A DNA stretch of 43,476 nt from IMG/VR virus record IMGVR_UViG_3300031977_000477, positions 1 to 43,476 of that record. One strand, written 5' to 3'. This document shows positions 976 through 43,235 of this stretch, in pieces. Position 1 is the first letter of the stretch; each line of letters begins with the position of its first letter. Source of the DNA: a virus. The notes under the pieces were generated by a model. It was not told where the DNA came from and did no database searches. It worked only from the letters and a program-made list of their open reading frames with translations. The translations under genes and the position numbers were made by a program.

Positions 976-1770
976 TTAAAAGGGTGCATCTCCTGGACTA
1001 ATCTCATCTAAAGATTTAGCCTTAGGCATTTCAACACCGTTCATCATAGCAGCGTAATCATTCCAAGACTTAGGTGTTTGTCTGCTATCAACCCACCAAG
1101 ATTTAGAAAATACTTTGCCATCTACAGTATCTCCTGCTGTACATTTAGATGCCATAATGCATCTAAAGTCAGGTGATTTCTGTGATTTCTTTTCTTCATC
1201 AGGAATATACTTTACGCTACCACCACAAGGACACCACAGCCCTACACTATCTATTGCTAATGAACCGTCCTCGTGTTTATTAACTTTTACTGTATATCCT
1301 GCATCCTCCATCTTTGCAATGATACCACCACTAGAGGAGGCGGAGGAAGCAGACGACCCTTCTACTTCCTCCTTTTTGTCTGCTACTTTTGCAGCAGGCT
1401 TTGTGCTTTGAGCCTCTTTGACAGTGGTGTCACCCTGCGTTTTAGACATTTCTTCTTTACTAGGTCGTGCCTTATCACTACCTTGATACTTCCAGTTAGC
1501 TAATGCTCTACCTATTGCAGAAGTTTCGCAGTTTTCTAACCACGCTTCCTTATTAGCAAAGCCACCTTGACCTTTGTATTCTTGTGCATACCCTGTTGCT
1601 ACTGCTTTCTCATCATCAAAGTCTTTATATACTAAAGCTTTAACAATTACCATAGTTCCTTCATCGTTGATTTTAGCAACGTGAGTTTCAATCCTACCAT
1701 TAGGATTATCAGACCAAAACTTCTTTAGTCTGTCTTCTACTGTTTCGTAGTTATCTAAATTAAAAGCCAT
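976..1770 (-). CDS. actinophage-type recombination protein, candidate Rad52/Erf-like single-strand annealing protein with C-terminal zinc ribbon
   Basis: The N-terminal ~110 residues carry the pattern of a family common in actinobacterial phages: VEDRLKKFW near residue 11, a VxALVY strand, ATGYAQE (58-64) and ENCETSAIGRALAN (79-92). The ETSAIGRAL helix resembles the conserved segment of Rad52/Erf-like annealing proteins, so I infer ssDNA annealing for recombination; profile-profile comparison would settle it. A Ser/Ala-rich linker (about 115-150) leads to a Cys4 module, C180, C182, C204 and C210, probably a zinc ribbon. Translation starts behind AAGGAGG. It is the last gene of the minus-strand operon that also encodes the phosphoesterase, which fits a nuclease/annealing pair. 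Confidence 0.68.
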   Translation of the reverse strand: MAFNLDNYETVEDRLKKFWSDNPNGRIETHVAKINDEGTMVIVKALVYKDFDDEKAVATGYAQEYKGQGGFANKEAWLENCETSAIGRALANWKYQGSDKARPSKEEMSKTQGDTTVKEAQSTKPAAKVADKKEEVEGSSASSASSSGGIIAKMEDAGYTVKVNKHEDGSLAIDSVGLWCPCGGSVKYIPDEEKKSQKSPDFRCIMASKCTAGDTVDGKVFSKSWWVDSRQTPKSWNDYAAMMNGVEMPKAKSLDEISPGDAPF

Positions 1771-1921: not shown

Positions 1922-2962
1922 TTACTCCTCTAGGTTTACTAAATACTCAGCAGTAACTCCCTTATCAGGCTTAACAAATAAACAATGCTGTGATGGTCTA
2001 CCCATACTAGCTAATTGTTCTAATGCATATCCATTGTGGCTTTCTGTACTACCATTAACCCACACCCTTGTATCGTTTATATACAAGTTAGTTGGTGTAT
2101 GATAGTGTCCACATACTGCGTGAGTAAAATCTTCCATAAGATTATTAGCTGCAAGAGATTTCCAACCTAAGATTTTTTTGTTATATCCATAGAAAGGAAG
2201 TCCCATACTGCCTCTAATATTATCTCCGTGGAAGCACAGAAACTTTGCTTTTTTACCTAAGTCTGCTACTAAGTACCAAGTCTTATCAGGTACTATGAAC
2301 TTAATTCTTTTCTCATTAGCAAACATTGTTTCCAATATCTTTCCTAACATACGGTCAGCGTTGCTTTCAGGGTTGTAATCTCTACGACTACGACCACCTA
2401 AAGCACCGTGGTTTCCTATAACCCAATATACTTCTACTTCATCAAACTCAGTTAATAGTTTGCTAAAGAAACCATATAGTATTCTTGGACCATCTACTGT
2501 TACTTGCTTATATAAAGAACTATCTATCTCGTGTGCTTGTCCTGGAAAAATTAGCTCTCCTTCTACGATGTCACCGAGACACATTACTGCACACTTCTTT
2601 ATAGAGTGATTAGCTTTTTGTACTCTAGTTATCTGTATAATCTTATCAGCATAACGTAGCACTCTTTCCTCTGCTATCTCACTATTATAAGTAGGTGTTC
2701 TTTTTGCTAATTGAATATCACTAAGTAAAGGCACACAGATTTCTTCTCCTTTTGTTTTAGCTTTAGCAGGTGCTTTTACTTTAGGTAAGTCAAGCGTACT
2801 AATACCATCTCTTGCACCTCTATATACTGCTTCAACTAGGTCAGCTTTCTTATCCTTTAACTTATCAATTTGTTTTAATAACCTTTGATTAGTTTGTTTA
2901 AGGTCTCTGATAGCTTCACTTTCAGCTTCTGCTAGTAAAGATGCAAGTTCTTTTTTATTCAT
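1922..2962 (-). CDS. calcineurin-like metallophosphoesterase (Mre11/SbcD-type DNA repair exonuclease candidate)
   Basis: All the metal-binding motifs of the family can be read: D82 in LSDIQLA (an unusual DIQ in place of DxH), GD131 in LGDIVEG, G-N184-H185 in VIGNHG, H245 in CFHGDN, and H286/H288 in CGHYHT. The first ~50 residues form a charged coiled coil, then a Lys/Ala/Pro linker. Such proteins in phages are usually annotated as exonuclease or phosphoesterase. With the annealing protein two genes downstream, a recombination or replication role is a reasonable inference. The ATG overlaps the end of the upstream 80-aa gene (ATGAATAA). The protein ends NLEE because the ribosome site of the next gene forms its last codons. 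Confidence 0.82.
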   Translation of the reverse strand: MNKKELASLLAEAESEAIRDLKQTNQRLLKQIDKLKDKKADLVEAVYRGARDGISTLDLPKVKAPAKAKTKGEEICVPLLSDIQLAKRTPTYNSEIAEERVLRYADKIIQITRVQKANHSIKKCAVMCLGDIVEGELIFPGQAHEIDSSLYKQVTVDGPRILYGFFSKLLTEFDEVEVYWVIGNHGALGGRSRRDYNPESNADRMLGKILETMFANEKRIKFIVPDKTWYLVADLGKKAKFLCFHGDNIRGSMGLPFYGYNKKILGWKSLAANNLMEDFTHAVCGHYHTPTNLYINDTRVWVNGSTESHNGYALEQLASMGRPSQHCLFVKPDKGVTAEYLVNLEE

Positions 2963-3197
2963 TAGTAAGGTTCTTTAACCACTCTGCAACTCTTGACCTA
3001 CTAACATCAATATTAAATTCTTCATTTAATATTCTATGGACACTACTAGCCACAGGTCTTTTTCCTTCTTGTACCATCTGTTCAATACCATTAGTGAAGG
3101 GTACAGCTTCACTAGGTAATCTCTCATACCAAGGGATATGACCACCCCTTTTTGCGACCATTGCTTTTTTAAGCAAATCGTTAATATCTATACTCAT
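2955..3197 (-). CDS. small HTH-like DNA-binding protein candidate (80 aa), first gene of operon
   Basis: The protein contains a predicted helix-turn-helix-like C-terminal half: SVHRILNEEFNIDVSRSRVAEWL (about residues 52-74, here split as SVHRILNEEF, NIDVS and RSRVAEWL). This has the spacing of a turn flanked by two helices, the second basic. The N-terminus is short, basic and Gly-containing. A DNA-binding or regulatory role is inferred from fold pattern only. The start ATG lies 6 nt behind a TATACT box (3209-3204), which suggests a leaderless transcript. Palindromic sites lie immediately upstream, so it may regulate its own operon. Confidence 0.6.
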   Translation of the reverse strand: MSIDINDLLKKAMVAKRGGHIPWYERLPSEAVPFTNGIEQMVQEGKRPVASSVHRILNEEFNIDVSRSRVAEWLKNLTNE

Positions 3198-3282: not shown

Positions 3283-3333
3283 AAAAAAAAAGTAGTAAGG
3301 GTAGGCACAAAGAGATAAACCTACCCTACTACT
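3283..3333 (-). terminator. rho-independent terminator of the AAA/VWA operon
   Basis: The minus strand reads a long stem, CCTACCCTACTACT in the plus strand at 3320-3333 pairing with AGTAGTAAGGGTAGG at 3291-3305 (one bulged base), followed by a run of eight T (3290-3283). It lies just after the stop of the VWA gene (3340). Confidence 0.88.
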
Positions 3334-3339
3334 TATAGC

Positions 3340-5139
3340 CTAGCTTTTCAGGGACAACTGTTTAGCTAAGTCTTTTACTTGTTCTCTCATACGTATAGGA
3401 ATAATATTGTGCTTAAACATAAAGCGTAATATATCCTCTCTATCTTGTTTTCGTAAATTAGCACCACCACCGTTCTCATTTACGCCTACGACTTGCTGGT
3501 CGCTAACCCATATACGAGGCTCAGGTTGTTCTGCTAACCATTTAAGAGCGTCATAATCTACTGAGTTCATACCATACTCTTGCAAATCACTAATAGCATT
3601 AGTATCAATACGACCATCTTGTGCGATTATTTTAATCATACCATCATAGCCGTCTTCCTTAATACCGTAGCCTACATAACCTGCAATGCTAGAAGCAGGT
3701 AGTAGTTCAACTACTTCTCTAATGTCATCACTAGTCCAACCCATACTGCCTGAACAATCTATCATCATAGAAGCACCTGCAACAACTTTCCTATTAGTGA
3801 ATACTTTTCTATCAGTAGTCATACGGTACATATTCTTAGGAACAATACCTCTATCACTATTCATCTTTGATAGTTCTCTAATAGCTTTAGGAACTTTACC
3901 ATTAGGTACAAACTTCTTAGTAATAGCTTTGCCGTGAGTACCTGTAGGATTACTGTAATAATCTATTAGTCCTCTCTTAGCGTCTCTATCAGCATTGTCC
4001 ATAATATCATTAGCAAGTTCTTTGTTAATATTATCAGGCAAAGATAATGTCTCATCATACTCTCGTGCTTTTTGGTCTGCATTTAGTAGCTCTTGTAGGT
4101 ACTCCTCACTAGGAAGTTCCATAAGAGTTTGTACATACTTTTCATTTTCTGCACCTTCATCAGTATTATTTAAGTAATCCTGATAAGCTGTCATCAATTT
4201 AGCTACTGTATTGTATCTCTTACTATAGTAAGAATAGTCTTGTGGATTAAGTAATCTCTTTCTAAGAACATTAACTTTCCTACGCATAGAGTGTTTATCA
4301 GCTCTAGTGCTAACGTATCTACTAGTATCATAATCAAACTGCCAATTATAAAACCTAGCCTTACCTAAGTATCTCTTGGCTTCTCGTATCATACCCCACA
4401 TTGTACTAATGACATCTTGTACATAAGCAATGTCTTTCTCTAATGTACTGTCAGGTATGTTAATACCAATAGGATAGAACTTATGTAAGTGAGATTTGAT
4501 ATGTTCTCTTATGCTGTCATCAGTTCTACCATAGGTGTTTGATGCACCTGCTGTATGTAATAAATGTAAATACACTTCATACAAAGGTGTCTTATTAAAC
4601 AACATATCAACCATTACTTTGTTGAGACTTTCTCTACTAGAGGTACTTATCTCAGGTAAATAGAAGCTACGATTTTGTTCAAACACTTTCTCGTTGTTAG
4701 TTAGTTTATAACCATTTTCTTTCTTTTCCTCTATTTGAACAGTTATATCCCAATCATTTTTACCGTATGCTTTAGCAATTTTCTTAGCTACTCTGTTTGC
4801 TTTCTGTCTAGCAATAATTTCTGCAATTAGAAACTGTGCTATATGTAGTGCTTCATCATTGTTTTTGAATTTCATATCCTCAAACAACTGTGCCTTAGCA
4901 TAAGCAATCTGTGTAAGTGTGTGTTCTTTGTTAGTACCACCACCAGTAAGATAGTTTGGAATAACCAACTCTCTCCTATGTGAAGGTATTAAAGAACTAC
5001 GTCTAACGACATTGTACTTTCTTACTTTGTTACCACGCATAGTAAGGTTAGCTAGAGTAGAGGGTACTTCTTGCGAAGCACCCTGTCTCTTACTAAATAA
5101 AGACTTCTTACTGCTTAATTGCTCTAAGAAACTACTCAT
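3340..5139 (-). CDS. VWA-domain protein with MIDAS site, partner of the adjacent MoxR-type AAA+ ATPase
   Basis: The C-terminal third is a von Willebrand factor A-type domain. The MIDAS motif D461-C-S463-G-S465 follows a hydrophobic strand (ASMMI), and a later strand carries IWVSD. The first ~430 residues are mostly charged helix with no motif I recognise. VWA proteins of this length beside a MoxR/NorQ-type ATPase form metal- or client-activating chaperone pairs in bacteria (CbbQ/CbbO, NorQ/NorD, RavA/ViaA, CobS/CobT), so a target-remodelling role is inferred; the client is unknown. The start overlaps the ATPase stop by 8 nt with an AAGGA site inside the ATPase gene. It is the last gene of the operon, followed by a terminator. 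Confidence 0.82.
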   Translation of the reverse strand: MSSFLEQLSSKKSLFSKRQGASQEVPSTLANLTMRGNKVRKYNVVRRSSLIPSHRRELVIPNYLTGGGTNKEHTLTQIAYAKAQLFEDMKFKNNDEALHIAQFLIAEIIARQKANRVAKKIAKAYGKNDWDITVQIEEKKENGYKLTNNEKVFEQNRSFYLPEISTSSRESLNKVMVDMLFNKTPLYEVYLHLLHTAGASNTYGRTDDSIREHIKSHLHKFYPIGINIPDSTLEKDIAYVQDVISTMWGMIREAKRYLGKARFYNWQFDYDTSRYVSTRADKHSMRRKVNVLRKRLLNPQDYSYYSKRYNTVAKLMTAYQDYLNNTDEGAENEKYVQTLMELPSEEYLQELLNADQKAREYDETLSLPDNINKELANDIMDNADRDAKRGLIDYYSNPTGTHGKAITKKFVPNGKVPKAIRELSKMNSDRGIVPKNMYRMTTDRKVFTNRKVVAGASMMIDCSGSMGWTSDDIREVVELLPASSIAGYVGYGIKEDGYDGMIKIIAQDGRIDTNAISDLQEYGMNSVDYDALKWLAEQPEPRIWVSDQQVVGVNENGGGANLRKQDREDILRFMFKHNIIPIRMREQVKDLAKQLSLKS

Positions 5140-5830
5140 CTTCCTTATCCAATTCTGTCATAGCATCTATGATATTGGAAGTGTCATTAGGAAATATTGC
5201 TCTAGCTGCTACTTCTAAATCACAACCTTTGTCTAACAACTCTGCAAACGCTGTCCATTTACGAACAGAGAAGTTTGTTGAGTAGTTGTAATCCTCATAT
5301 ACTGCTTTGAGTTTGTTAGGAAGTGCTTCCAATGCATCAGGATGTACTTCATTAACTTCTATCTTTACAGGAAATCTGTCGCCTAAAGCATCACTCAAAT
5401 CTTGTGGTGTGCCGTTCATAGTAGCGACTATTTGAAATCCTGAAGCAGGTCTTACTACTTCTTTTTCTTTGTTAGGAAGTGTGAATTTTGCAAACTTAGG
5501 GTCGTCTAAGAGTGCGTGTAAGAAAGTCATAACATCTACACCAGCGTGGTCTATCTCGTTAATAACTAGTCTTGCACCTTCCTTCCAAGCACGAACACCG
5601 ACACCATCAAGCCACTCAAATCCACCACTATCGGTAGCTATGTAGTGTCCCATAAGCTCTGCTGCTGTGCTATCTTGTGTTAGTGTAATGTTATATACAC
5701 CTTGTTCTTTCTTTAGTCCAAGTGTATTTGCTTGGTATGTCTTACCTGTACCAGGTACTCCATAGAGCAATACTCTCGGTGTGAAAGGGATAACTTCTTT
5801 AAGTAATCCCCATACGTTATCGTCCTTCAT
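5132..5830 (-). CDS. MoxR/NorQ/CbbQ-type AAA+ ATPase
   Basis: Walker A is GVPGTGKT at residues 24-31, Walker B LVINEID at 88-94, sensor-1 Asn lies in VATMNGTPQD (about 129-138), and an arginine-finger-like DRFP follows directly. The compact length (232 aa) and the TLTQDSTAAELMGHY segment are typical of the MoxR-like AAA+ branch (CbbQ/NorQ/CobS) that works with VWA proteins. It would use ATP hydrolysis to remodel a partner through the VWA protein encoded downstream with overlapping codons. It is one of the few clear enzymes of the leftward arm. It should not be read as a replicative helicase. Confidence 0.87.
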   Translation of the reverse strand: MKDDNVWGLLKEVIPFTPRVLLYGVPGTGKTYQANTLGLKKEQGVYNITLTQDSTAAELMGHYIATDSGGFEWLDGVGVRAWKEGARLVINEIDHAGVDVMTFLHALLDDPKFAKFTLPNKEKEVVRPASGFQIVATMNGTPQDLSDALGDRFPVKIEVNEVHPDALEALPNKLKAVYEDYNYSTNFSVRKWTAFAELLDKGCDLEVAARAIFPNDTSNIIDAMTELDKEDE

Positions 5831-5833: not shown

Positions 5834-6316
5834 CTATTCCTCCTCTTTTAGGTCTTGTGTTTGCACCTCTTGTGCTAACATACTGTCAATGTCTTTGAAA
5901 AACTTAGTAGTAAGTCTTTCTACATTAATATCGTTCCATACTTCCATAGGTTCCTCTTGTATATTTGTAACAAGTGGTACATCAGGAAGCATACTGTAGG
6001 CATCTAAGGGAATATCTACTACAACACTATGTGTTGAATTACTGTCATCTTGTAGAACAAATTCCCATATAGTCCTAACGTGTTCCTCACACTCAACACC
6101 TTGCTTGTGCTTGTGAGGTATAGCCATTTTAAGAAAGATAGGAAACCTATCATCTATACAGGCTAGTTCGCCTAGTGGTTTTGGCTCAAACAACCACTCT
6201 GCTATCTGTCTGTTGTACTCGTTCTTAATGGACAGTTCATTAAGAAACTTTAGTATTGGTTTAGTAATAGCAACGTGTGTCTTAACAGTACTTGTTGCTT
6301 CGTATTGAATAGTCAT
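5834..6316 (-). CDS. uncharacterised operon protein (160 aa)
   Basis: I do not recognise this protein. It is soluble and acidic towards the C-terminus, with alternating hydrophobic strands in the middle (FPIFLKMAIP, SVVVDIPLDAY) that suggest an alpha/beta or beta-rich fold. It lies directly upstream of the MoxR-type ATPase, separated by 3 nt, so it is a candidate cofactor or client of the AAA/VWA pair. It ends KEEE because the last codons GAG GAG GAA double as the ribosome site of the ATPase gene. Confidence 0.75.
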   Translation of the reverse strand: MTIQYEATSTVKTHVAITKPILKFLNELSIKNEYNRQIAEWLFEPKPLGELACIDDRFPIFLKMAIPHKHKQGVECEEHVRTIWEFVLQDDSNSTHSVVVDIPLDAYSMLPDVPLVTNIQEEPMEVWNDINVERLTTKFFKDIDSMLAQEVQTQDLKEEE

Positions 6317-6317
6317 A

Positions 6318-7010
6318 CTATTCCTCCTCCTCTACTTTTAGTTCTTTTAAGAACTTAACAATGTCATCATCACTAATTTTGTTATTAACAACATCTACTA
6401 AGTCTTTCTTATCTACTATGTTTCCTGCCTCATCACTATATCCACCTTCCATAATGTTGCTTATGGTAGGAACAGAACCTAGTGATATCATTGCAGGCTC
6501 AGTATGGTCTAAACACTTTTCGTAGAACTGACTAAAGTGTTCTCTGTTATTTACTATGAACTCAGTAGCTTGTATCAACAGTTGTGCTGCTACCATAAAG
6601 TCGCTAGTGTCCTCACCTTCCTTTTCAAGTTTTGCTACAATACTATCCTTCATCTCTAAGTCAATAGGATTACCTTTAGCCATACCTTGAAACTGATTTG
6701 ATACAAAGGCAGATAAGCCTACCATCATATCAGCAATACGGTTGAACCATAATGTTCTATCAATCATATTGAGTATGTCAGTATAGTCTGTTGCTGCTAC
6801 GTGATACTTACCACCTGCTTTGCTCTTAGATATATTACCGTCCTTATCTACGTCAGGTGGGAAAAAGAAACCAACACCTTGTAGTTTCATCTCCCCTAAC
6901 ATACTAATTTGTTGGTAGTCCTTTAGACCAAGCTGTTCAGCTCGTTCCATTTTTTCTTTTAAGTTCCTAGAAAACTCCTCAAAGTCTTCTTGACTAGGCA
7001 TATCAGCCAT
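6318..7010 (-). CDS. uncharacterised operon protein (230 aa)
   Basis: Not recognised. Mainly helical, with a charged N-terminal coiled coil (about 6-45), a Gly/Pro-rich patch (GVGFFFPPD, about 46-54) and a long helical region with many hydrophobics (about 78-180). The C-terminus is strongly acidic and ends VEEEE, encoded by the purine-rich ribosome site for the next gene, which starts 1 nt after the stop. No enzyme motif is visible. Its place two genes before the MoxR-type ATPase makes it part of the same translational unit. Confidence 0.75.
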   Translation of the reverse strand: MADMPSQEDFEEFSRNLKEKMERAEQLGLKDYQQISMLGEMKLQGVGFFFPPDVDKDGNISKSKAGGKYHVAATDYTDILNMIDRTLWFNRIADMMVGLSAFVSNQFQGMAKGNPIDLEMKDSIVAKLEKEGEDTSDFMVAAQLLIQATEFIVNNREHFSQFYEKCLDHTEPAMISLGSVPTISNIMEGGYSDEAGNIVDKKDLVDVVNNKISDDDIVKFLKELKVEEEE

Positions 7011-7321
7011 TATTCCTCCTCTTGTTTAGTCATCTTTGTACTTCTTGCTACTAAGTAACGGTAACCATTTCTAGTAGCTGTCTTGAAGTCCATCTCTAAG
7101 TTAAGTTCTTTAAGGTTAGTGCAATCAGTTCTAAGTGCGTTAGCACTTGTAATGTCTTGCATAGGACTAACTCCTATAACTATCCACCTTCCATTAGCAC
7201 TCTGAACTTTTCTTAGTGCGTGCTTATATCTATTAGTAACAGCAGTACCTTTATTACCTCTACCTTTAGGTCGGTATTGTACTACCTCATCACTAATCTC
7301 ATCACCTACTTTATAGGTCAT
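7010..7321 (-). CDS. uncharacterised basic operon protein (103 aa)
   Basis: Not recognised. The N-terminal half is basic (RPKGRGNKG, NRYKHALRKV) and may contact nucleic acid; the central segment NGRWIVIGVSP looks like a beta hairpin. It starts with an ATGA overlap on the upstream gene and ends KQEEE with a TAATG overlap on the downstream gene, so it belongs to the coupled operon. No cysteine pair or catalytic motif is visible. Confidence 0.7.
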   Translation of the reverse strand: MTYKVGDEISDEVVQYRPKGRGNKGTAVTNRYKHALRKVQSANGRWIVIGVSPMQDITSANALRTDCTNLKELNLEMDFKTATRNGYRYLVARSTKMTKQEEE

Positions 7322-7656
7322 TCTTCCTCCTCTATTTCACTACAACCACACTCACAGTTTTGTATTGTGTCGTAGGGTGTAGCATACTTACTGTCTATGT
7401 CGTTTCTACATTGCTTACACATAGCACGACTATTGTTCCATATTGGAATTGGCTTATCTATTGGTATCTCTGCGTTACACATATCACAAATCCAAAAGTC
7501 ATCTGCTATTCCTGTGTCTAGTAAAGTATCTATAAAGAAAACTCCACCACTTTCTTGGTTCTCTCTACGAAAACGCATAGCTTCTAGTCTTGCAATCTGT
7601 CTATGCAGTATAGGGTTTGTTACCATATACCAATGATTACTCTCCTCCATCATCAC
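7318..7656 (-). CDS. zinc-ribbon protein (112 aa)
   Basis: It contains a clear Cys4 zinc ribbon: C57-D-M-C60 and C80-K-Q-C83, framed by an aromatic strand (DDFWI). The C-terminal C101-E-C-G-C105 cluster could bind a second metal or bridge. The N-terminal ~45 residues are basic and helical. I considered a WhiB-type Fe-S regulator because marine actinophages can carry them, but the Cys spacing does not fit. It overlaps the upstream gene by 20 nt, and the AAAGG site 5 nt before ATG 7656 supports this start. It ends IEEEE. Confidence 0.75.
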   Translation of the reverse strand: MMMEESNHWYMVTNPILHRQIARLEAMRFRRENQESGGVFFIDTLLDTGIADDFWICDMCNAEIPIDKPIPIWNNSRAMCKQCRNDIDSKYATPYDTIQNCECGCSEIEEEE

Positions 7657-7906
7657 AACCTTTACAATCTTTGCTGTGTGGTACTTGTTCTACATCTAAA
7701 CTAAGTTGTGTAATAGGCATATCGTGCCTTCTACAATTAATTATTAATCTAGTTGTATCCCCTTCAAACTTGAAGCCTACTTCTAACAACTGTTGATATG
7801 GTTCTCCATTAATACCACCAGTTTCCTCTACGCACTTATAACAATGTACATATTGGTCAGCTTCAGGTCTGTTACTACTAGGTTTAGTTACACTATCCCA
7901 GCTCAT
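7637..7906 (-). CDS. small zinc-binding protein (89 aa)
   Basis: Potential metal ligands are C22-Y-K-C25, C58 with H61, and a C-terminal pair C81-K-G-C84, set in a beta-rich middle part (LLEVGFKF, TTRLIINC). This could be a small zinc ribbon plus a flexible metal-binding tail. The gene starts with TAATG coupling and its last codons (GGA GGA GAG) form a strong purine-rich site. Function unknown; one of four or five Cys-rich proteins clustered here. Confidence 0.7.
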   Translation of the reverse strand: MSWDSVTKPSSNRPEADQYVHCYKCVEETGGINGEPYQQLLEVGFKFEGDTTRLIINCRRHDMPITQLSLDVEQVPHSKDCKGCDDGGE

Positions 7907-8172
7907 TACTCCTCCTCTTTAGCTCTTATTACTGCTTCGTTTATTGCTATCACCTGTGTTCTAACATCATCAGATGCAGTTTTATCGTTATTAACATACT
8001 CAGTAAATCCTTCTCTAAACTTATCATTACTGAGAATTGTTGCTATGAACTTAGCACGAAATTCGTTAGAACTTTCGCCTAAGTGTTCTACGATACATTG
8101 TTGTCCTGCTACTAAAATATCTACTCTCTTTGATAGTCCTTCAATAGCATCAACTATATCTTTACTAGACAT
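7906..8172 (-). CDS. uncharacterised operon protein (88 aa)
   Basis: Not recognised. It is helical and amphipathic with an N-terminal heptad-like segment (IVDAIEGLSKRVDILVAG) that could pair as a coiled coil, followed by a mixed region and an acidic end AKEEE. Both ends use TAATG one-base overlaps with the neighbouring genes, and the GAGGAG ribosome site for the downstream gene is within its last codons. Confidence 0.7.
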   Translation of the reverse strand: MSSKDIVDAIEGLSKRVDILVAGQQCIVEHLGESSNEFRAKFIATILSNDKFREGFTEYVNNDKTASDDVRTQVIAINEAVIRAKEEE

Positions 8173-8393
8173 TACTCCTCCTCTTTACTCCATCTACTCT
8201 TAACAAAGAAGGTAGGCATATGGTCTAACAATTCTTTAGCAGTACTATTAGTGCTATCATCTAGCATTGATACCATACTGTCTATAAGTTGTATTGCTTC
8301 ATCTTTTCCTACCTCATTACTAAAAGTAAAATCTACTGTTAGTACATTGACATCATCGTTGCCTGTACTAAACATCTCATATACTTTATTCAT
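8172..8393 (-). CDS. uncharacterised acidic protein (73 aa)
   Basis: Not recognised. It has a short beta-like stretch (VNVLTVDFTFS) followed by an acidic helix (KDEAIQLIDSMVSMLDD) and ends SKEEE, again reflecting the ribosome site of the next gene. It starts by TAATG overlap with the zinc-ribbon gene upstream. A small regulatory or inhibitor protein is possible, but nothing in the sequence decides. Confidence 0.68.
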   Translation of the reverse strand: MNKVYEMFSTGNDDVNVLTVDFTFSNEVGKDEAIQLIDSMVSMLDDSTNSTAKELLDHMPTFFVKSRWSKEEE

Positions 8394-8542
8394 TACGCTC
8401 TCTCCAATCTCTTACTATTCTGTTTCTTTATAGTTTGATAACCACACTTAAAGCACTGCACAATGATATGTACTGAGCTTTTAACATTGCTATGAATAGC
8501 TAGTTTTGTATAGTTACCCTGTCTGCAATTATCGCATAACAT
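8393..8542 (-). CDS. 49-aa Cys4 zinc-ribbon protein
   Basis: The protein starts M-L-C3-D-N-C6 and carries a second pair C30-F-K-C33, an ideal small zinc ribbon, with a basic tail. I chose ATG 8542 because GAAGGGA lies just upstream and the first cysteine pair is immediately N-terminal; the frame stays open further upstream to 8614, but that extension has no ribosome site. Its end (GAG AGA GCG TAATG) overlaps the next gene. Such ribbons are common in nucleic-acid-binding proteins, but no specific function can be given. Confidence 0.65.
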   Translation of the reverse strand: MLCDNCRQGNYTKLAIHSNVKSSVHIIVQCFKCGYQTIKKQNSKRLERA

Positions 8543-8693
8543 AATTGTCCCTTCTATAAATGGCAAAGCCACAGTTTCGGTAGTTAGTTTCAAACAGGGT
8601 GTGATATAAATCACAACTAACGCCTACTACTGTGGCTTCACCTCGTACAAGTATCCGTTTATTAGCGAATACTGCTATGTCCTCACATAGCAC
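8529..8693 (-). CDS. possible 54-aa protein with GTG start
   Basis: A minus-strand frame from GTG 8693 to TAA 8531-8529 encodes a mixed, protein-like sequence (IAVFANKRIL, EATVVGVSCDL) and overlaps the next gene by 14 nt, in the style of this operon. There is no clear ribosome site. The GTG itself falls inside one arm of a 12-bp inverted repeat (8686-8697 with 8750-8761), so if real its start may be hidden in RNA structure. This is the weakest gene call of the operon. Confidence 0.38.
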   Translation of the reverse strand: MLCEDIAVFANKRILVRGEATVVGVSCDLYHTLFETNYRNCGFAIYRRDNYVMR

Positions 8694-8836: not shown

Positions 8837-9340
8837 TTAGCAACCGTAATCGCAAGTCTTTGTACTTGCTGATATTAATAACCCACAGCCCTTACAGTAC
8901 TCTGCCATATCAATAACCTCTATCTTAGGGGGACGGCAGTATCTACCTTTTACATACGGTCGCTTACATATAGAACAGTTGTCCTTACCTCGTGCTTTCT
9001 TACAGGAGTTCTCTGCTCTACGAATAGCCTTAGCATTAGCTTCGCTTTCTGCAATTATTCTAAGACCTTCCTCTATAGCAAGTCTCTCCTCTATACTAGT
9101 TCTCTTTACAGGGGTTTCTAAGTCCCTGCAATCGTAGCATATATAGCCACGAACTAGTGATTTGCTACAGTACTTACATACTGAAGTCTTGTTAAGAGCA
9201 TTATGTACTGGTTGTACATACTCTCTAACACCATTGAGATTAGGAATACCTGTATCTATAATAGTGTTGTTGTCCTCGTCATATACTCTTTTAGTGCGAG
9301 GAACACTTGGTCGCTTATATCTTTTACCCACAATAAACAC
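8837..9340 (-). CDS. multi-zinc-ribbon protein (167 aa)
   Basis: Three Cys clusters are visible: C55-K-Y-C58 with C68-Y-D-C71, C122-S-I-C125 with C135 (this set lacks a fourth Cys), and C149-K-G-C152 with C163/C167. A charged helix (about 82-112) connects the first and second. The N-terminus is basic. This is the layout of a zinc-ribbon nucleic-acid-binding protein, possibly a regulator; the family is not recognised. The start is GTG: either 9340 or, with better spacing behind AAGGTAGG, the GTG at 9331. A promoter-like pair lies right in front, which would give a leaderless message. Confidence 0.72.
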   Translation of the reverse strand: MFIVGKRYKRPSVPRTKRVYDEDNNTIIDTGIPNLNGVREYVQPVHNALNKTSVCKYCSKSLVRGYICYDCRDLETPVKRTSIEERLAIEEGLRIIAESEANAKAIRRAENSCKKARGKDNCSICKRPYVKGRYCRPPKIEVIDMAEYCKGCGLLISASTKTCDYGC

Positions 9341-9703: not shown

Positions 9704-9738
9704 AAAAAAAATGGCTACGCACCATAGTGCGTAGCCAT
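9704..9738 (-). terminator. rho-independent terminator of the 147-aa gene
   Basis: A perfect 12-bp stem, ATGGCTACGCAC (9711-9722) with GTGCGTAGCCAT (9727-9738), has a 4-nt loop and is followed on the minus strand by seven or more T (9710-9704). It starts only 5 nt after the stop of the gene at 9744, so that gene is transcribed alone. Confidence 0.92.
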
Positions 9739-12512: not shown

Positions 12513-12766
12513 TGGCTGTTACATATAGAGGAGAAAAATTTTCAGGTTATAACAAACCTAAGCGTACACCTAAAGCTAGTAAGTCACACGCTGTTCTTGC
12601 TAAGAAGGGTGATAAGGTTAAGTTAGTTAGATTTGGACAACAAGGTGTCAGTGGTGATGGTAAAAATAATACCGCGAGGAGAAGGTCGTTTCACGCTAGA
12701 CATAATTGCTCAGCAAAGAAGGACAAGTTTACTGCAGGCTATTGGGCTTGCAAACATAAGTGGTAA
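12512..12766 (+). CDS. conserved small basic phage protein (84 aa)
   Basis: It begins MAVTYRGEKFSGYNKPKRTP and has a middle beta-like stretch (DKVKLVRFGQQGVSG). The C-terminal part RRSFHARHNCSAKKD...AGYWACKHKW holds two Cys and three His that might bind zinc. Proteins of this pattern are conserved beside marine phage packaging genes (recognised from memory), but no role is established. The C-terminus overlaps the GTG start of the terminase gene, so it is translated with the packaging genes. Confidence 0.75.
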   Translation: MAVTYRGEKFSGYNKPKRTPKASKSHAVLAKKGDKVKLVRFGQQGVSGDGKNNTARRRSFHARHNCSAKKDKFTAGYWACKHKW

Positions 12767-14673
12767 ATAATGTAGTATGTGTTTCTCCTGAATGTGAGGA
12801 ACGATTACCAACAGGGCAGCGTAAATATTGTTCTAAAACTTGTATGTGGAGAGAACAAAAAAGAAAAGCAAGACTTAAAGAACAGGGTAGAGAATATGAA
12901 CCTGTTATCAAAGAAGCTAACAAAGGCAAAGTAACACAAGTTAGACGAGGTGCCTTATATGACAAATTTGTTAATGAAGGTTATGCATTAGACCTTATAC
13001 AAGAAAGAATGACTAGAGCTGAAATAGCTAAAGAGTTAGGTTGTACTCCTGCACACATATCTAGATTGTTAGGAGCATTTCAAGAAGATTATGAAAAAGA
13101 TAAACAAGCTGAGAATTGGGAAGTATCTGATGATGCAGCACAATCACTAGAAGATTTTCAAAATTTTAGAGATAGATACTTTTTAACAGAACAAGGTATA
13201 CCTTTTGAAACAGCAGACTTTCATCACAGATGGATAAAATCTATTAACAAAGCTTTACTTACTGGTGGTCAGCAAATGATACTAAGTCCACCTAGACACG
13301 GTAAAACTGAATTGTTAATACATTTTGTTATTTGGCTTATATGTAGAAATCCAAACATAAGAATTATGTGGGTAGGTGGTAATGAAGATATTGCTATGAA
13401 CTCTGTAATGTCTGTTATGGATACATTAGACCAAAACGAAAAACTTAAAGAAGATTTTTGTGGACCTGGTGGTAGCTTTAAGCCTGCAACTAGAGCAGGT
13501 AAAATGTGGTCTAGAAATGGTTTTACTGTATCTACAAGAACAGTATCAGGTATTAAATCACCTACAATGATTGGTATTGGTAGAGGTGGTAAGATACTTT
13601 CTCGTGATTGTGATTTAATTATTGCAGATGACATTGAGGACCACAGTTCTACTATGCAACCTGCATCAAGAGAAAATACTAAAAACTGGTGGACTACAAC
13701 ATTAGGTTCTAGAAAAGAGGAACATACAGCTATGGTACTTATAGGTTCTAGACAGCACCCTGAAGATTTATATTCTGCAATATTAGAGAATGATGCTTGG
13801 GAACATATTGTTGAAGAAGCACACGATAGTATGTGTAACATAGCTGAATTTGAAGAAGAAGAACATTTTGAATGTATGTTGTGGAAAGGTAAAAGAAGTT
13901 TTAAGTGGTTAATGAATAGAAAGAAAGATGCTATGACTACTGGTGGTTTGAAGAATTTTGAAATGGTATATCTTAATAAAGCATTTAACGATACATTAAG
14001 ATTATTTAATCCTGAGCAGATACAAGAATGTTATGACCCTAATATGCGTTTAGGTTATGTACCACCTGGTTCATACTTAGTAGCAGGACTTGACCCTGCA
14101 GCTACAGGTTATCAAGCAGGTTTCTTGTGGGCTGTAGAAACAAGTAATGGTCAAATCAAAATGACAATGGTTGATTTAGAAAATACACACGGTGGTGGAT
14201 TAGATGAAGCTAGAAACTTAATTAAAATGTGGCACGAAAAATATCATTGTTACCACTGGGTTATAGAAGAAAACGGATTTCAAAAAGCAATTAGACAAGA
14301 CCAAACTACAAAAGAATATTGTAATGTTCAAGGTATAAAACTTGAAGGACACGAAACACATAAAAATAAATGGGACGAAAGATTTGGTGTCACTGCACTT
14401 GCTCCGATGTTTTCTGATAAGATGATAGTATTGCCTTTTGCAGATGCAGATGCACAGAGTAAGACAATCGCTTATACAAAACAGCTTACTTATTTCGCAA
14501 GCAAAAACTCTGCAAGAGGTAAGGCAAAGTCCGATATAGTTATGGCAAGTTGGTTCCCAATGAAAGTTGTAAGAACCTTGACAAAATTAACCTATAGTGA
14601 TATGGGGATAGATTACAAACAGAGTTTTACTGGTTATAATACTAATGATTGGAATGAAGTACCTTGGAGTTAA
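12760..14673 (+). CDS. terminase large subunit with fused N-terminal zinc finger and HTH
   Basis: The packaging motor ATPase and nuclease. Walker A is SPPRHGKT (176-183), Walker B LIIADDIED (286-294), and RNase H-like nuclease acidic residues are seen at D445 (GLDPAATG), E503/E504 (VIEENGF) and D592 (SDIVMASW). Ahead of the motor are a Cys4 zinc finger (C7, C12, C24, C28) and an HTH segment (RAEIAKELGCTPAHISRLL, about 86-104), unusual for TerL. No separate small terminase is seen nearby, so the N-terminal part may do the DNA recognition. The start is GTG 12760, inside the end of the previous gene; no in-frame ATG precedes the zinc finger. Confidence 0.9.
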   Translation: MVNNVVCVSPECEERLPTGQRKYCSKTCMWREQKRKARLKEQGREYEPVIKEANKGKVTQVRRGALYDKFVNEGYALDLIQERMTRAEIAKELGCTPAHISRLLGAFQEDYEKDKQAENWEVSDDAAQSLEDFQNFRDRYFLTEQGIPFETADFHHRWIKSINKALLTGGQQMILSPPRHGKTELLIHFVIWLICRNPNIRIMWVGGNEDIAMNSVMSVMDTLDQNEKLKEDFCGPGGSFKPATRAGKMWSRNGFTVSTRTVSGIKSPTMIGIGRGGKILSRDCDLIIADDIEDHSSTMQPASRENTKNWWTTTLGSRKEEHTAMVLIGSRQHPEDLYSAILENDAWEHIVEEAHDSMCNIAEFEEEEHFECMLWKGKRSFKWLMNRKKDAMTTGGLKNFEMVYLNKAFNDTLRLFNPEQIQECYDPNMRLGYVPPGSYLVAGLDPAATGYQAGFLWAVETSNGQIKMTMVDLENTHGGGLDEARNLIKMWHEKYHCYHWVIEENGFQKAIRQDQTTKEYCNVQGIKLEGHETHKNKWDERFGVTALAPMFSDKMIVLPFADADAQSKTIAYTKQLTYFASKNSARGKAKSDIVMASWFPMKVVRTLTKLTYSDMGIDYKQSFTGYNTNDWNEVPWS

Positions 14674-37290: not shown

Positions 37291-39260
37291 TGCCTAGAAT
37301 ACCTTCTACTAATTTTATTGGTAAACCTAAAAGTTATGGATATGATGCAAGGCTTGATACTATGCTTCTAAGAACTGCTATAGGACCTGGCAGAGAAATG
37401 ACAATACAATCATCAGATGTACAAGAACAAGGTATTAATGTTAAACAAAACGCTGAGGACTTTACATCTAACTTAGGTCGTATATATTCAAGAAATAATT
37501 TTACAGGTGGTCAAGGTTTAGATACTGCACACAGAGCTAATGGACAGCCTAATGATAGTACAAGATTTTGGGATAGTAGAGGTATAGATGTTTTTCACGG
37601 AGAAGATGAAGTATCATACAACATACACTTACTACATAACACTACATCACTAGAAGTTACTGGCTCAAATTTATCAGACAATAGTTTCTTAGTTAGAACA
37701 AATGGTGATAGTGGAGAAACATTATGGTTAGCTAGTGGTGCAAATATTTATGCAAGTAGTAATGGTGGAACTACTTGGACACTTTCTTTAACTGCTGGTT
37801 ATGACATAACTGGTATGGCACCTTTTGGTGGTACTTTGTTTATTACTGCTGGAAGTGGAACTAATACAGAGTTGCAACACTATGATGGTTCATCTTGGAC
37901 TAATGAAAGTTTAGGCAGTGTTATATCAGGATATTTGAATAACATATTTGTAGAAAAAGGTTTTGTGTTTGTAGCTGGTGTATCTAATGGTACACACTAC
38001 TTATGGCACGCAGACCCAATAGCAAGGAACTTTAATAATAAATTTACAACTGCTTCATCTGATTTAGTTGTAACTGCTGAAGCTAAGTTTACTAGTGCTG
38101 CTGATGCAGGTGCAGTTGTACTTGTAAGTAATGAGAATGGTAAAGTCTATTCTATTAAAGACAATGGTGGTACACCACAAGTTAAAGGTCAAAGTAAAGT
38201 ATCATTTGAAAAAATATTTACAATTGCTGCAACAGAAGGAATAATATTTTTAGGAACACAAGAAGCTACTAGAACAGTAGGCAGATTATATAGAGCACAG
38301 CTTGTTGTAGCTGATGATTTATATGTACTAGCTAATAGACAACTTATAAAAGAATGGTTTGCAGATGGTGTAGATACTACACCATATAGTATGTTTGTAT
38401 CTAGAGATAGTGTGTATATGGGAGTTTGTGAAGCTTCTAATGAATTAAATCTGTGGCGATACTACTTACCAACAGGTGGTTTGGCTAGAGATTTATTAAC
38501 AGTAGGTACAGGTAAATGCAGAGGTATCACACAATCAGATGGTATGTTTCTTATATCAGTATCAGGTCATAATGTATTTAAAGAGCAGACTACATACGAA
38601 AGTACAGGTTATATCATAAGTTCTGCAGCAGATTTTTACACAGCAGAAAGAAAACAGTTTGTAGGTGCAGCAGTATCTACACTAGAACTACCTAGTGATA
38701 CAGATGTAGAACTTAGATTTTCTAATAAATTTGAAGATTTAGACAATCCTGATAGTACTGGATATAAGCTTGGACTAAAACAAAACCACGGTGCAGGTGA
38801 TGCTGAGAAACAGATTACACCTGTAGCTAGATACATTATTGGTAAGCTAGTACTAAATAGTCACTTACAACAAGACACACCTAAAGTTAAATCATTTCAG
38901 TTTCGTGCATTAGCTAGACCTGAACTTGTAGTTGTAAGGGTACCTATAAATATTTCAGATAGAGTAGAAAGACCTAATAGAAAACCATTAATTGTAAAAG
39001 GTTTAGGTGATAGTTTATACAATGAACTTAGAGGAAAAGAAGGTGACAGTATAACATTAGAACTATTTGACCCTGCTGAAGTTGTCAAAGGTGTAGTAGA
39101 AAATTTAAGTTATCCTATAACAGTTAATACTGAAAGAGGTTCTGTTACTACATATGCTGTACTTACAGTGCGTGGAACAAGAGTTCCTATTGTTTCTGAT
39201 GTATCATCAAGAGTTGTATTTGGTATAGAAACATTAGGTGTAATGAGATTTGGAGGTTAA
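37290..39260 (+). CDS. beta-propeller tail protein, nozzle-like (656 aa)
   Basis: Repeated four-stranded segments with Asp-box-like motifs are seen, the clearest being IYASSNGGTTW (about 152-162) and a related YDGSSWTNES, so the middle of the protein is probably a beta-propeller. The N- and C-terminal parts are beta-rich; the C-terminus ends in a Val/Arg-rich strand cluster. Phage proteins with this composition after the adaptor build the nozzle or tail-tube end in podoviruses. TAATG coupling to the adaptor gene. A host-binding role is possible. Confidence 0.65.
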   Translation: MPRIPSTNFIGKPKSYGYDARLDTMLLRTAIGPGREMTIQSSDVQEQGINVKQNAEDFTSNLGRIYSRNNFTGGQGLDTAHRANGQPNDSTRFWDSRGIDVFHGEDEVSYNIHLLHNTTSLEVTGSNLSDNSFLVRTNGDSGETLWLASGANIYASSNGGTTWTLSLTAGYDITGMAPFGGTLFITAGSGTNTELQHYDGSSWTNESLGSVISGYLNNIFVEKGFVFVAGVSNGTHYLWHADPIARNFNNKFTTASSDLVVTAEAKFTSAADAGAVVLVSNENGKVYSIKDNGGTPQVKGQSKVSFEKIFTIAATEGIIFLGTQEATRTVGRLYRAQLVVADDLYVLANRQLIKEWFADGVDTTPYSMFVSRDSVYMGVCEASNELNLWRYYLPTGGLARDLLTVGTGKCRGITQSDGMFLISVSGHNVFKEQTTYESTGYIISSAADFYTAERKQFVGAAVSTLELPSDTDVELRFSNKFEDLDNPDSTGYKLGLKQNHGAGDAEKQITPVARYIIGKLVLNSHLQQDTPKVKSFQFRALARPELVVVRVPINISDRVERPNRKPLIVKGLGDSLYNELRGKEGDSITLELFDPAEVVKGVVENLSYPITVNTERGSVTTYAVLTVRGTRVPIVSDVSSRVVFGIETLGVMRFGG

Positions 39261-39284
39261 AAATATTATGTTAGGATTATTACT

Positions 39285-39464
39285 ATGTCAATGCTAACTA
39301 TTATGAAAGAAGGTGGTAGCCTTCAAATAGATACTATTGGTAACTTACCTATTGATGAAGATATTGATTTTACTGACGATGTAAGTTATTCTGCTATAAT
39401 AGGTCTAGCAAGTTTTGGACTATCAAGACTTGGCGATACAGTTAATACGGAGAAGAAAACATAA
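39285..39464 (+). CDS. uncharacterised small protein (59 aa)
   Basis: A short frame from ATG 39285 with AGGA nine bases upstream encodes a mainly hydrophilic protein (LTIMKEGGSLQIDTIGNLPIDE) with a small hydrophobic stretch (AIIGLASFGLSRLG). It overlaps the next gene by TAATG. Not recognised; position suggests a tail assembly or chaperone protein. Confidence 0.58.
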   Translation: MSMLTIMKEGGSLQIDTIGNLPIDEDIDFTDDVSYSAIIGLASFGLSRLGDTVNTEKKT

Positions 39465-40366
39465 TGCCAGCAAGAGAAGTAAACTTAGCTAACTTTTTTG
39501 AAACAACAGCAAATGGAAATATTGGTGCATCTGATACAACTATTACATTAGATGCAGCACCTACATCAGATGGTACTAACCCTATAGCAGGACCATTCTA
39601 TTTAGTAATAGACCCTGATAGTTTAACTAAAAGAGAAGTAGTTTATGTAGAAACCATATCAGGTTTAGTATGTGATTTAGTAACCACATCTAACAGAGAT
39701 ATTGAGAATAGACACGCAGCAGACCCAAGTCACGATGATGGTGTAACCATTCGTATGTCTGTTGTAAAAGAAATGATAGAGGATGTACACGATAGAATTA
39801 ATGACGTAGCTTTAACAGGTGAAGTAACAGGTACAATAGCATCAGCTACACAAGATATAGCTACAACATTAGCTAGTGGTATAGATGCTACTAAGATTGC
39901 AGATGGCTCTGTAACAAGCACAGAGTTTCAATATATAAATACATTAAGTTCTAATGCACAAACACAATTAGATGCTAAGTTAGACCATACTGGTGGTACA
40001 TTAACAGACGTAACTGAAACAGTACAAGCTGTAACAAGTTCTAGTGGAAATGTAGATGTAGATTTAGCATCAGGAAATGTCGCAACAATTACATTAACAG
40101 AAGCAATTACCTCAATAGACTTTACAAATGTTCCTACATCAGGTGTTGCAGTAGCACAATTAATTATTACACAAGACGCAGCAACAGCTTATGGAGTTAC
40201 ATTATCTGTAACCGTAAATGGTGCTAGTGCAGTTACTGCTAATACAAGTGGTAATGGAGGATTTGCTATGAGTACTACATTAAGTACAGTAGATATTGTT
40301 TCATTCTTATTTGTAAACGGTGGTACTCCTCACGTCACATTCCTTCAGGATATGAGAAACTCCTAG
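39464..40366 (+). CDS. tail fibre-like protein (300 aa)
   Basis: The N-terminal part starts with NLANFFETTANGNIGASDTTITL, a beta motif also present in the adaptor's N-terminus, and continues with Thr/Ala/Val-rich sequence (TGTIASATQDIATTLASG, SVTSTEF) typical of trimeric fibre shafts. The C-terminal ~90 residues (IDFTNVPTSGVAVAQLIITQ..., FVNGGTPHVTFLQDM) form a beta head. It probably attaches to the tail and carries part of the host recognition. TAATG coupled. Confidence 0.68.
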   Translation: MPAREVNLANFFETTANGNIGASDTTITLDAAPTSDGTNPIAGPFYLVIDPDSLTKREVVYVETISGLVCDLVTTSNRDIENRHAADPSHDDGVTIRMSVVKEMIEDVHDRINDVALTGEVTGTIASATQDIATTLASGIDATKIADGSVTSTEFQYINTLSSNAQTQLDAKLDHTGGTLTDVTETVQAVTSSSGNVDVDLASGNVATITLTEAITSIDFTNVPTSGVAVAQLIITQDAATAYGVTLSVTVNGASAVTANTSGNGGFAMSTTLSTVDIVSFLFVNGGTPHVTFLQDMRNS

Positions 40367-40372
40367 GGTGCT

Positions 40373-40777
40373 ATGCCTGTAGGTGCATATAAATTTGCTT
40401 TCATATCAGTAGGAGATGCTGATGGTCCTGTATGGACAACTGCTGCAGGTAATGTAGGTACATTTAGACCTGGTGTTGCTATATCATCACAAGATAGCAA
40501 CATAACTTTACAAGCTGCAGACGAAGCAGGTAACGGAGAAAGCTTTGCAATCACTTCAGGTTCATTACCTTCAGGATTGTCAATGGTAGATAATGGTAAT
40601 GGAACTGCTACAATTAGTGGAACACCAGGACAAGTTACAAGTAGCACTACAAGTACTTTTACAGTAACTGCTAGTGATGACCTTGGTAATGAAAGTCCAA
40701 GAGAATTTAATATAGTAATAGAACCTAACTACTTTGGTGACAGTAGTGATGGTGCATTCAATGACGGTAACGATTAG
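40373..40777 (+). CDS. Ig/cadherin-like (He_PIG-type) tail or adhesion protein (134 aa)
   Basis: Residues about 50-125 form a putative Ig-like domain with the He_PIG signature: GSLPSGLSMVDNGNGTATISGTPG followed by STFTVTASDDLGN (shown in parts). Such domains occur on phage tails and fibres and help to bind cell-surface carbohydrates. It lies between the fibre and the Gly-rich adhesin. The N-terminus PVGAYKFAFI is hydrophobic but not a convincing signal. No good ribosome site; coupling is likely. Confidence 0.65.
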   Translation: MPVGAYKFAFISVGDADGPVWTTAAGNVGTFRPGVAISSQDSNITLQAADEAGNGESFAITSGSLPSGLSMVDNGNGTATISGTPGQVTSSTTSTFTVTASDDLGNESPREFNIVIEPNYFGDSSDGAFNDGND

Positions 40778-40786
40778 GAGTAAATA

Positions 40787-41713
40787 ATGGCAGCATATAC
40801 TTGGTCAGTAACAAATCCAAATGGATATGATGGCGATATGGTGGTAAGACAATATTCATCTTTTAATTTAAGTAGTGGTAATACACTTACACCTGCTAAT
40901 AGGTGTAGAGGTGTTATGATATTTGTAGATGGAGATGCAACTATTAATGGAACTATCACTGTATACGGTGGTTATGGTGGTACTCCTGCTGATACTTCTT
41001 GGAATATGCATTGGATTAAATCAGGTCAAACAGGTTCATTTACAAACTCTACATCACAATGGGGAAATGGTAGTACAGATGCTAATGGCATACACCCTGA
41101 CTTAACAGATATATTTTCTAAAATGCCTGCAACTTCAGGTAACTCTTTTAATGTATTCTCAGGTTCTAACACAGGAGATGGTTCAGGTGGAACAGGCTAT
41201 GGTGGTGCAGCAGGAAACAACCCACAAGATAGCAAGAACCAAGGTTCACCTTATGCAGGTGGAGCAGGTGGAAACGGTGATATTGGAGCAGGAGACAGCG
41301 AACAAAGATATGGTGGTCGTGGAGGTAATGGTCAAACAGGTGGTGCATATCCAATGGGTTCAGGTGCAGGAAACCCTTCAGGTTCTCCGTTTTCAGGTGC
41401 TAGTTATTCAGGAGGATTATTCGTAATGGTAGCTAGAGGTAACATTAATGGCTCAGGAACAATATCCTGTCCTGGTGGAAATGGTGGTAGTGCAGGTTGG
41501 GGTGGTTCAGAACCTTTATACTCTTACGGTGGTGGTGGCTCAGGTGGAGGTAGAATTATTCTTTTAGCAGGTGGAACAGTATCAGGTTCAATAACTACAA
41601 ATGTAAATGGTGGTAATGGTGGTTCAGGTAACTCAGGTGCTAAAAACCTTAGGATAAATGGTAGTCGTGGAGCTCACGGAACTACACAGAAAGTATCTAG
41701 TATAGGAGCATAA
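40787..41713 (+). CDS. glycine-rich tail adhesin, polyglycine-II-like (308 aa)
   Basis: The N-terminal ~110 residues are mixed beta. From about 125 to 308 the sequence is dominated by Gly-x-Gly blocks (GGTGYGGAAGNN, GGAGGNGDIGAG, GGRGGNGQTGG, GGNGGSAGWGG, GGGGSGGGRIILLAGG). Phage receptor-binding tips of the S16 gp38 type fold such repeats into polyglycine II lattices, so this could be the receptor-binding tip. The Gly repeats are encoded by simple GGTGGA units, which makes the gene easy to lengthen or shorten. Starts behind TAGGAGTAAATA. TAATG coupling downstream. Confidence 0.65.
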   Translation: MAAYTWSVTNPNGYDGDMVVRQYSSFNLSSGNTLTPANRCRGVMIFVDGDATINGTITVYGGYGGTPADTSWNMHWIKSGQTGSFTNSTSQWGNGSTDANGIHPDLTDIFSKMPATSGNSFNVFSGSNTGDGSGGTGYGGAAGNNPQDSKNQGSPYAGGAGGNGDIGAGDSEQRYGGRGGNGQTGGAYPMGSGAGNPSGSPFSGASYSGGLFVMVARGNINGSGTISCPGGNGGSAGWGGSEPLYSYGGGGSGGGRIILLAGGTVSGSITTNVNGGNGGSGNSGAKNLRINGSRGAHGTTQKVSSIGA

Positions 41714-41928
41714 TGGCAGCTAACACAGAACCATATGATTTAGACATAGTATGTGTAGTAGTAGATGATGTAAGAAGATGTTTTTCTATTACTAGTAACA
41801 GAGATGATATGGCAGTATGTCAAGACACTGTAACAAAACCTGCTACTGATTTAGAGTGGTACTATGAATTACTTAAACAAACAACTTGTGACCCTGAAAC
41901 AAATGCACCTATGGTAAGGGATTGGTAA
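41713..41928 (+). CDS. uncharacterised small protein (71 aa)
   Basis: Acidic protein with four cysteines (C14, C23, C36, C59) and beta-like start (YDLDIVCVVVDDVRRCFSI). Not recognised. It is coupled by TAATG to the adhesin gene upstream and to the next gene downstream. Small genes here often encode fibre assembly chaperones, but there is no direct evidence. Confidence 0.62.
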   Translation: MAANTEPYDLDIVCVVVDDVRRCFSITSNRDDMAVCQDTVTKPATDLEWYYELLKQTTCDPETNAPMVRDW

Positions 41929-42161
41929 TGGATTACGATACACTAATAGAACCATTTGTAGGATTAGAAGATTGGCAACCTATACATCACTTTGATTACT
42001 TAGCACATTATGATGGACACGCTACAATAACAGCAGAAGCCTTGGCTGAAATGTTTATTAAACAAGTAGATAACTGCAGCAGGTTTCAAAATATGACAAT
42101 ACAAGAAGCAGGAATAAGTAAACAAGACATAACAGAACTTAGAGATTTAGACTTACTTTAA
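41928..42161 (+). CDS. uncharacterised small acidic protein (77 aa)
   Basis: The start is ATG 41928, overlapping the previous stop and behind AAGGG; the open frame extends two codons upstream without benefit. The protein is acidic and helical in the C-terminal half (EALAEMFIKQVDNCSRFQN, QDITELRDLDLL) with an aromatic/His-rich N-terminus (WQPIHHFDYLAHYDGH). Not recognised. Confidence 0.62.
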   Translation: MDYDTLIEPFVGLEDWQPIHHFDYLAHYDGHATITAEALAEMFIKQVDNCSRFQNMTIQEAGISKQDITELRDLDLL

Positions 42162-43232: not shown

Positions 43233-43235
43233 ACA

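Follow-up and report, generated by a model that had tools for sequence, protein, structure and literature searches.

The window, that is, the whole stretch of viral DNA that was analysed (IMG/VR record IMGVR_UViG_3300031977_000477, 43,476 bp), carries on its minus strand, at 3340-5830, two genes encoding a AAA+ ATPase (AAA) of 232 residues and an adaptor protein with a VWA domain (VWA) of 599 residues. A preliminary description of this DNA had taken them for a MoxR/VWA-type pair overlapping by 8 nt. Both open reading frames are indeed real: AAA matches the Pfam family AAA_5, its partner displays a predicted VWA fold and the residues DxSxS...D, and the overlap (ATGAGTAG) lies at 5132-5139. This overlap, together with a Shine-Dalgarno sequence, couples the two genes translationally.

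The eight genes upstream of AAA, between 8614 and 5834, follow one another with overlaps of 0-20 nt or gaps of 1-3 nt, and an intrinsic terminator stands directly 3' of VWA, which bears out the earlier placement of the pair at the end of an operon of small proteins. A strong hairpin with a T-run follows VWA in all 25 lineages of the same clade (type A, see below) in which this stretch is available, the stem sequences being different; it was detected by folding, the terminator tool having missed it owing to its loop limit. With a second terminator located upstream, the AAA/VWA pair thus closes a terminator-bounded operon (Table 1). Since the terminator comes immediately after VWA, the p80, nuclease and p264 genes on the same strand probably form a separate transcription unit. 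The AAA/VWA operon lies beside this nuclease unit, on the strand opposite to that of the late genes.

Table 1. Position of the genes, motifs and terminators discussed in the text
Feature	Position	Strand	Observation
Metallophosphoesterase (MPE)/exonuclease-like, neighbouring unit	1922..2962	-	PHROG 284 exonuclease, 2e-41; 78% mean identity
p80, small HTH-like protein that opens the next unit, outside the AAA/VWA operon	2955..3197	-	25/28 lineages
Intrinsic terminator directly 3' of VWA	3283..3341	-	hairpin + T9, dG -23.6 kcal/mol, z -5.0
VWA adaptor, 599 aa	3340..5139	-	helical N part ~1-400, C-terminal VWA domain ~447-599; model pLDDT 77
MIDAS second Asp, D547	3499..3501	-	invariant
MIDAS threonine position, S526	3562..3564	-	Ser here, Ser/Asn in relatives
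MIDAS DCSGS (D461, S463, S465)	3745..3759	-	D461, S463 and S465 invariant
MoxR-class AAA+ ATPase, 232 aa	5132..5830	-	Pfam AAA_5, E 1e-19
Sensor-1 Asn, N139	5414..5416	-	invariant
Walker B LVINE, AAA residues 88-92	5555..5569	-	Asn where Asp is usual; N91 and E92 invariant
Walker A GVPGTGKT, AAA residues 24-31	5738..5761	-	G27, T28, G29, K30 and T31 invariant
p160, directly upstream of AAA	5834..6316	-	26/26 lineages, 37/37 MPE-baited loci; model pLDDT 78
p230	6318..7010	-	24/28 lineages, position varies; 23% mean identity
p103	7010..7321	-	1/28 lineages, closest lineage group only
p112, zinc-ribbon-like	7318..7656	-	Zn_ribbon_15, E 0.003, below cut-off
p89, CxxC protein	7637..7906	-	sequence; 17/28 lineages
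p88	7906..8172	-	3/28 type A lineages; also 25 type B lineages
p73a, common to type B	8172..8393	-	hhalign probability 99.9 to type B pB78
p73b, small CxxC..CxxC protein	8393..8614	-	21/28 lineages
p167, zinc-ribbon-like, first gene after the 9711-9738 terminator	8837..9340	-	23/28 lineages
Upstream intrinsic terminator, following p147	9711..9738	-	12-bp stem + T-run

Several further features of this region deserve mention. The Shine-Dalgarno sequence GAGGAGG at several operon junctions also encodes the C-terminal EEE of the preceding gene product. Most of the products encoded at 5834-8393 (minus strand) terminate in EEE or EEEE, as does p160 in most relatives, the region of the stop codon serving at the same time as Shine-Dalgarno sequence for the next gene. 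In the neighbouring unit, p264 (976-1770, minus strand) has a C-terminal zinc-finger-like part and matches only PHROGs without assigned function; its ENCETSAIGRALA motif presumably resembles those of phage single-strand annealing proteins. A protein of ~80 residues adjoins a metallophosphoesterase also in Actinomycetia phage DSL-LC01, where it is called the terminase small subunit, and in Streptomyces phage Dagobah; in both phages the two genes stand away from any AAA/VWA pair, and HMM comparison gave no significant similarity between these small proteins and p80.

The ATPase and its VWA adaptor

AAA scores 71.2 bits against the Pfam AAA_5 model (cut-off 22) and matches PHROG 16448, annotated 'ATPase' (5e-34), as well as PHROG 249, the phage CobS-like family (1e-20). 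Among proteins of known structure, its sequence profile matches NorQ (1.9e-12), CbbQ (1.6e-8) and CobS (9.5e-6), while the bpMoxR conflict-system model PF20030 is matched below its cut-off (20.1 versus 27 bits). Walker A, the catalytic glutamate of Walker B, the sensor-1 asparagine, a DRFP arginine finger and a sensor-2 arginine are all present. The Walker B motif, previously considered intact along with Walker A and sensor-1, is nevertheless altered: the Mg-binding aspartate is replaced by asparagine in every lineage scored, namely 26/26 of type A and all 46 of type B caught by the pattern. Since Walker B reads N-E without this aspartate, ATP hydrolysis by the protein is not assured. Mean identity of AAA across 26 lineages is 60%, and dN/dS values of 0.12-0.22, close to the 0.18-0.22 of p160, clearly suggest purifying selection.

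The partner protein matches no Pfam VWA model and, among PHROGs, only 33218 (annotated as unknown function, 1e-13); a Pfam MRP-S33 match (E 2e-4, below cut-off) was taken as chance. Its identification as a VWA protein therefore relies on the DxSxS...D residues and the predicted fold. In 14 sequences scored, D461, S463, S465 and D547 are invariant, so that the DxSGS and second-aspartate parts of the MIDAS originally reported as intact hold, but the threonine position is occupied by Ser or Asn and the site is not a standard MIDAS. The closest matches of the fold predicted for residues 447-599 are the VWA domains of NorD in NorQ-NorD (9qh8_G, Z 8.4; 9qh6_G, Z 8.3). All matches listed are VWA or VWA-like domains, and NorD's top rank is formally tied because the next match reaches Z 7.5; the resemblance of the model to NorD is modest, lying within 1 Z of unrelated VWA domains. 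The alignment spans 146 of the 257 residues of the NorD VWA domain, for which reason the phage protein may lack the pore finger of NorD or have a shortened one. The two parts of the adaptor diverge at very different rates, with a mean identity of 22% in the N part as compared with 55% in the C part, and dN/dS of 0.31-0.55 for the whole protein and up to 0.57 for the N-domain. This is what would be expected if the N part were the specificity domain.

Two clades and the position of p160

The operon was looked for in other phages, as had been suggested, and its core recurs there. A single AAA query retrieved 23 related IMG/VR contigs, and profile searches with p160, AAA and VWA yielded 28 independent type A lineages; the order p160-AAA-VWA is found in 26/26 of those holding an AAA gene, and p160-AAA-VWA-p80 is strict wherever the type A stretch is complete. 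When the downstream metallophosphoesterase was used as bait, p160, AAA and VWA were present in 37/37 loci with enough upstream sequence, and the system is thus core rather than optional. Neither VWA nor p230 had a tblastn match in isolated phages. A pattern scan for AAA across 84,980 genomes of bacteria and archaea likewise returned no relative, yet this negative result carries little weight because a scan with TerL found two MAG contigs that bear the pair.

One contig reached with the TerL profile encodes an AAA protein matching at 49% and a VWA protein with an N-terminus of a different kind (HELGH...LEEVRI). Searches from this contig led to a sister clade of 56 lineages (type B), 53 of which have AAA and 52 VWA; tblastn of the type B VWA protein in isolated phages gave no match. 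The VWA domains of the two clades belong to one family (hhalign probability 100, 7e-41) whereas their N-domains have no detectable relation (probability 0.5). HExxH occurs in the N-domain of none of 24 type A proteins and in 43/50 of type B; as the other 7 lack it, it is improbable that all of them depend on peptidase activity. In both clades the pair belongs to the core genes, along with TerL and portal; the unit is a never-lost feature of the lineage.

Such company might point to a chaperone for virion or packaging assembly, acting on the terminase or on the giant proteins of 2283 and 1673 residues, since the phage does make very large structural proteins. The operon, however, is on the strand opposite to the late genes, has its own terminator and lies beside nuclease-type genes, and we regard an assembly role as improbable. 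Alternatively, the client may belong to the host (RNA polymerase, a defence complex and a respiratory enzyme are examples), with the pair serving takeover or counter-defence and p160 being an adaptor. The early-type operon of small proteins would agree with this, as would the different N-domain of type B and the very fast evolution of the type A N-domain, of the sort seen in host-facing proteins. Against this stands the outcome of the PADLOC search for defence or anti-defence models, which gave no strong match, the best one (E 1.3e-4) covering ~30 residues around Walker A. We therefore consider a host client rather unlikely, although less so than an assembly role.

The proteins of 160 and 230 residues had been put forward as the nearest candidate clients. 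p230 is common (24/28) but its position is not fixed; p160, by comparison, is best-linked to the pair; its constant adjacency, its close coupling and its place in the same unit make it the best candidate in type A. Among the proteins considered, p160 is the most likely dedicated cofactor or client of the type A pair. It has no PDB match by fold (best Z 3.8) and a weak BFVD match to an unnamed protein of 93 residues (E 0.005). None of the 56 type B lineages encodes p160; AAA is preceded there by the unrelated pB169 (51/51) and pB105 (40/51). Since type B retains AAA and VWA without it, p160 is not the client in the family as a whole. The contrast between the clades is weak evidence in either direction because most other early genes differ as well (p188, p147, p167, p73b, p112, p103 and p230 are also absent from type B), and was rejected as proof of partnership. 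That p160 might be a split-off HExxH domain was rejected (no similarity, hhalign probability 0.2). Distance correlation, for which the background genes were poor, did not single out a client: the values for p160 with p80 (0.83) and with the metallophosphoesterase (0.79) are higher than that for p160 and the VWA N part (0.49).

Cobalamin, host and mode of action

It is common practice to class viral 'cobS/cobT' as auxiliary metabolic genes related to vitamin B12. The pair could accordingly join the CobN of the host and boost insertion of cobalt into cobalamin, as proposed for viral CobST (PMC8651126). The match of AAA to PHROG 249 is in line with this proposal, and in type B the HExxH segment of the N-domain gives a weak alignment (hhalign probability 59) with the 'peptidase' encoded beside cobS in pelagiphage HTVC008M. 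VWA also shows, around the second MIDAS aspartate, the pattern NxxDxxALxW...RIWxSD, which we take to be CobT-like. The specific models, however, do not fit: AAA reaches 17.3 bits with the CobS equivalog model TIGR01650 (cut-off 558.55), and CobT_C (PF11775) has no match in the record. CobN (PF02514), the cobaltochelatase subunit sought in the phage lineage, is absent from all ten related phage records, in agreement with the initial view that the phage encodes no cobalamin client. Nor was CobN found in 42 genomes from the family to which the phage-bearing MAG belongs; these genomes are small and may be incomplete, and the standing of this family as host family is tentative. The control search was positive in 5/14 genomes. 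A function in cobalamin synthesis thus appears very improbable, and the lineage offers a clean case in which the B12 reading fails, the genes being core, the models ill-fitting and CobN missing from both the phages and the probable host family.

The phages of this family are small and marine, and their hosts are probably marine actinobacteria. Two contigs of the Actinomycetota MAG RS345 carry one type A and one type B phage, and the metallophosphoesterase shares 48% identity with its counterpart in Streptomyces phage Dagobah. An actinobacterial host is therefore likely, although binning is no proof and the second MAG match of TerL is labelled Gammaproteobacteria. Both RS345 contigs are over-assembled, repeating themselves over 14,457 bp (99.99%) and 10,323 bp (99.4%); their full-length phage units measure ~43,859 and ~43,828 bp. 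Given related units of ~43.8 kb, the window is probably close to complete.

Although its relatives suggest that this genome is near full length, the Pfam and PHROG searches revealed no DNA polymerase, helicase or primase among the proteins they covered. In TerL (12760-14673, plus strand), an N-terminal zinc-finger-like segment rich in cysteine precedes a helix-turn-helix match (Pfam Crp/HTH_23, residues 76-110), as if a DNA-binding part resembling a small subunit had been fused to it. The last part of the window (38892-43476) is near-identical to IMGVR_UViG_3300032087_000824, a 61.9-kb contig, from ~16100 to its end, two stretches of 3259 and 1324 bp being exactly the same, while the AAA/VWA regions are only ~30-62% alike in protein. 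Either a mosaic exchange took place recently or the longer contig contains a joining artefact.

Bacteria use pairs of a MoxR-type ATPase and an adaptor as motors that reshape other proteins. On balance, we think it probable that the phage pair is a protein-remodelling motor of this MoxR/VWA kind, similar to NorQ/NorD, acting early in infection with p160 as its dedicated cofactor or client. An early role, rather than one in cobalamin synthesis, is suggested by the location of the operon opposite the late-gene strand and next to the nuclease unit. If the working scheme of NorQ/NorD (PMC9976466; PMC13036017) is taken as a template, the AAA subunits would form a hexamer, in or on which the VWA domain would dock; the client would be held through an acidic residue by the MIDAS metal and gripped at a second point by the variable N-terminal domain of VWA, and an ATP-driven rotation might then strain it open. 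In type A, the most likely candidate for that client, or for a cofactor in the process, would be p160.

It is possible, and we advance it tentatively, that the two clades share a core viral remodelling machine that has nothing to do with cobalamin; the client-binding domain of its adaptor would have been exchanged between them (HExxH or helical), and p160 would be a phage-encoded dedicated client or cofactor. If so, to our knowledge, no MoxR/VWA system acting on a viral client would have been known before. The difference in N-domain between the clades provides a natural means to map specificity, and p160, AAA and VWA beside the p80-nuclease unit make up a small conserved set in which to look for the client.

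Comparison with known MoxR/VWA systems

Calling the present system undescribed, as was done at first, is too strong, since MoxR/VWA pairs are known from phages: the cobST two-gene cluster is widespread in tailed viruses of eight orders, for which hijacking of host CobN has been suggested (PMC8651126), and two MoxR-chaperonin subunits have been named in Bacillus phage 0305phi8-36 (PMC2147016). Among the closest cellular counterparts is NorQ/NorD of Paracoccus, which serves iron insertion into cNOR and likewise combines a single-domain AAA+ protein, a close sequence relative of AAA in the PDB, with a protein made of a variable N-domain and a C-terminal VWA/MIDAS domain, the top fold match of the phage VWA domain. 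The phage pair differs in having no NOR client, in its N-E Walker B and in the replaced MIDAS threonine. RavA/ViaA and CbbQ/CbbO follow the same two-gene logic, with an adaptor comprising an N-domain and a C-terminal VWA domain, but sequence similarity is only remote and there is no LdcI, Frd or rubisco client. Midasin (Rea1/Mdn1) belongs to the same AAA_5 class and obtains the top PDB profile score when summed over its repeated AAA domains; in contrast to the phage proteins, it unites six AAA modules and a VWA domain in one eukaryotic chain.

The aerobic cobaltochelatase subunits CobS and CobT also consist of a AAA+ ring and a VWA partner, and share with the phage pair the CobT-like motif around the second MIDAS aspartate, but the latter fails the CobS and CobT_C models and has no CobN. 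Adjacent AAA_5 and VWA genes are likewise found in phage and haloviral 'CobST' systems (cyanophages, pelagiphages with CobS and an HExxH-VWA 'peptidase', Gordonia gp74/75 and DSL-LC01), and the AAA profile matches all three 'CobST' isolates examined. Type A AAA nevertheless lacks their N-terminal extension (232 versus 339-409 residues), the N-domain of its VWA partner is devoid of HExxH and shows no detectable similarity to theirs, and p160 was not found next to the 'CobST' pairs of the isolates examined. The phage pair is a new, compact, non-CobST branch, set apart by a different adaptor N-domain and by a new third protein, p160.
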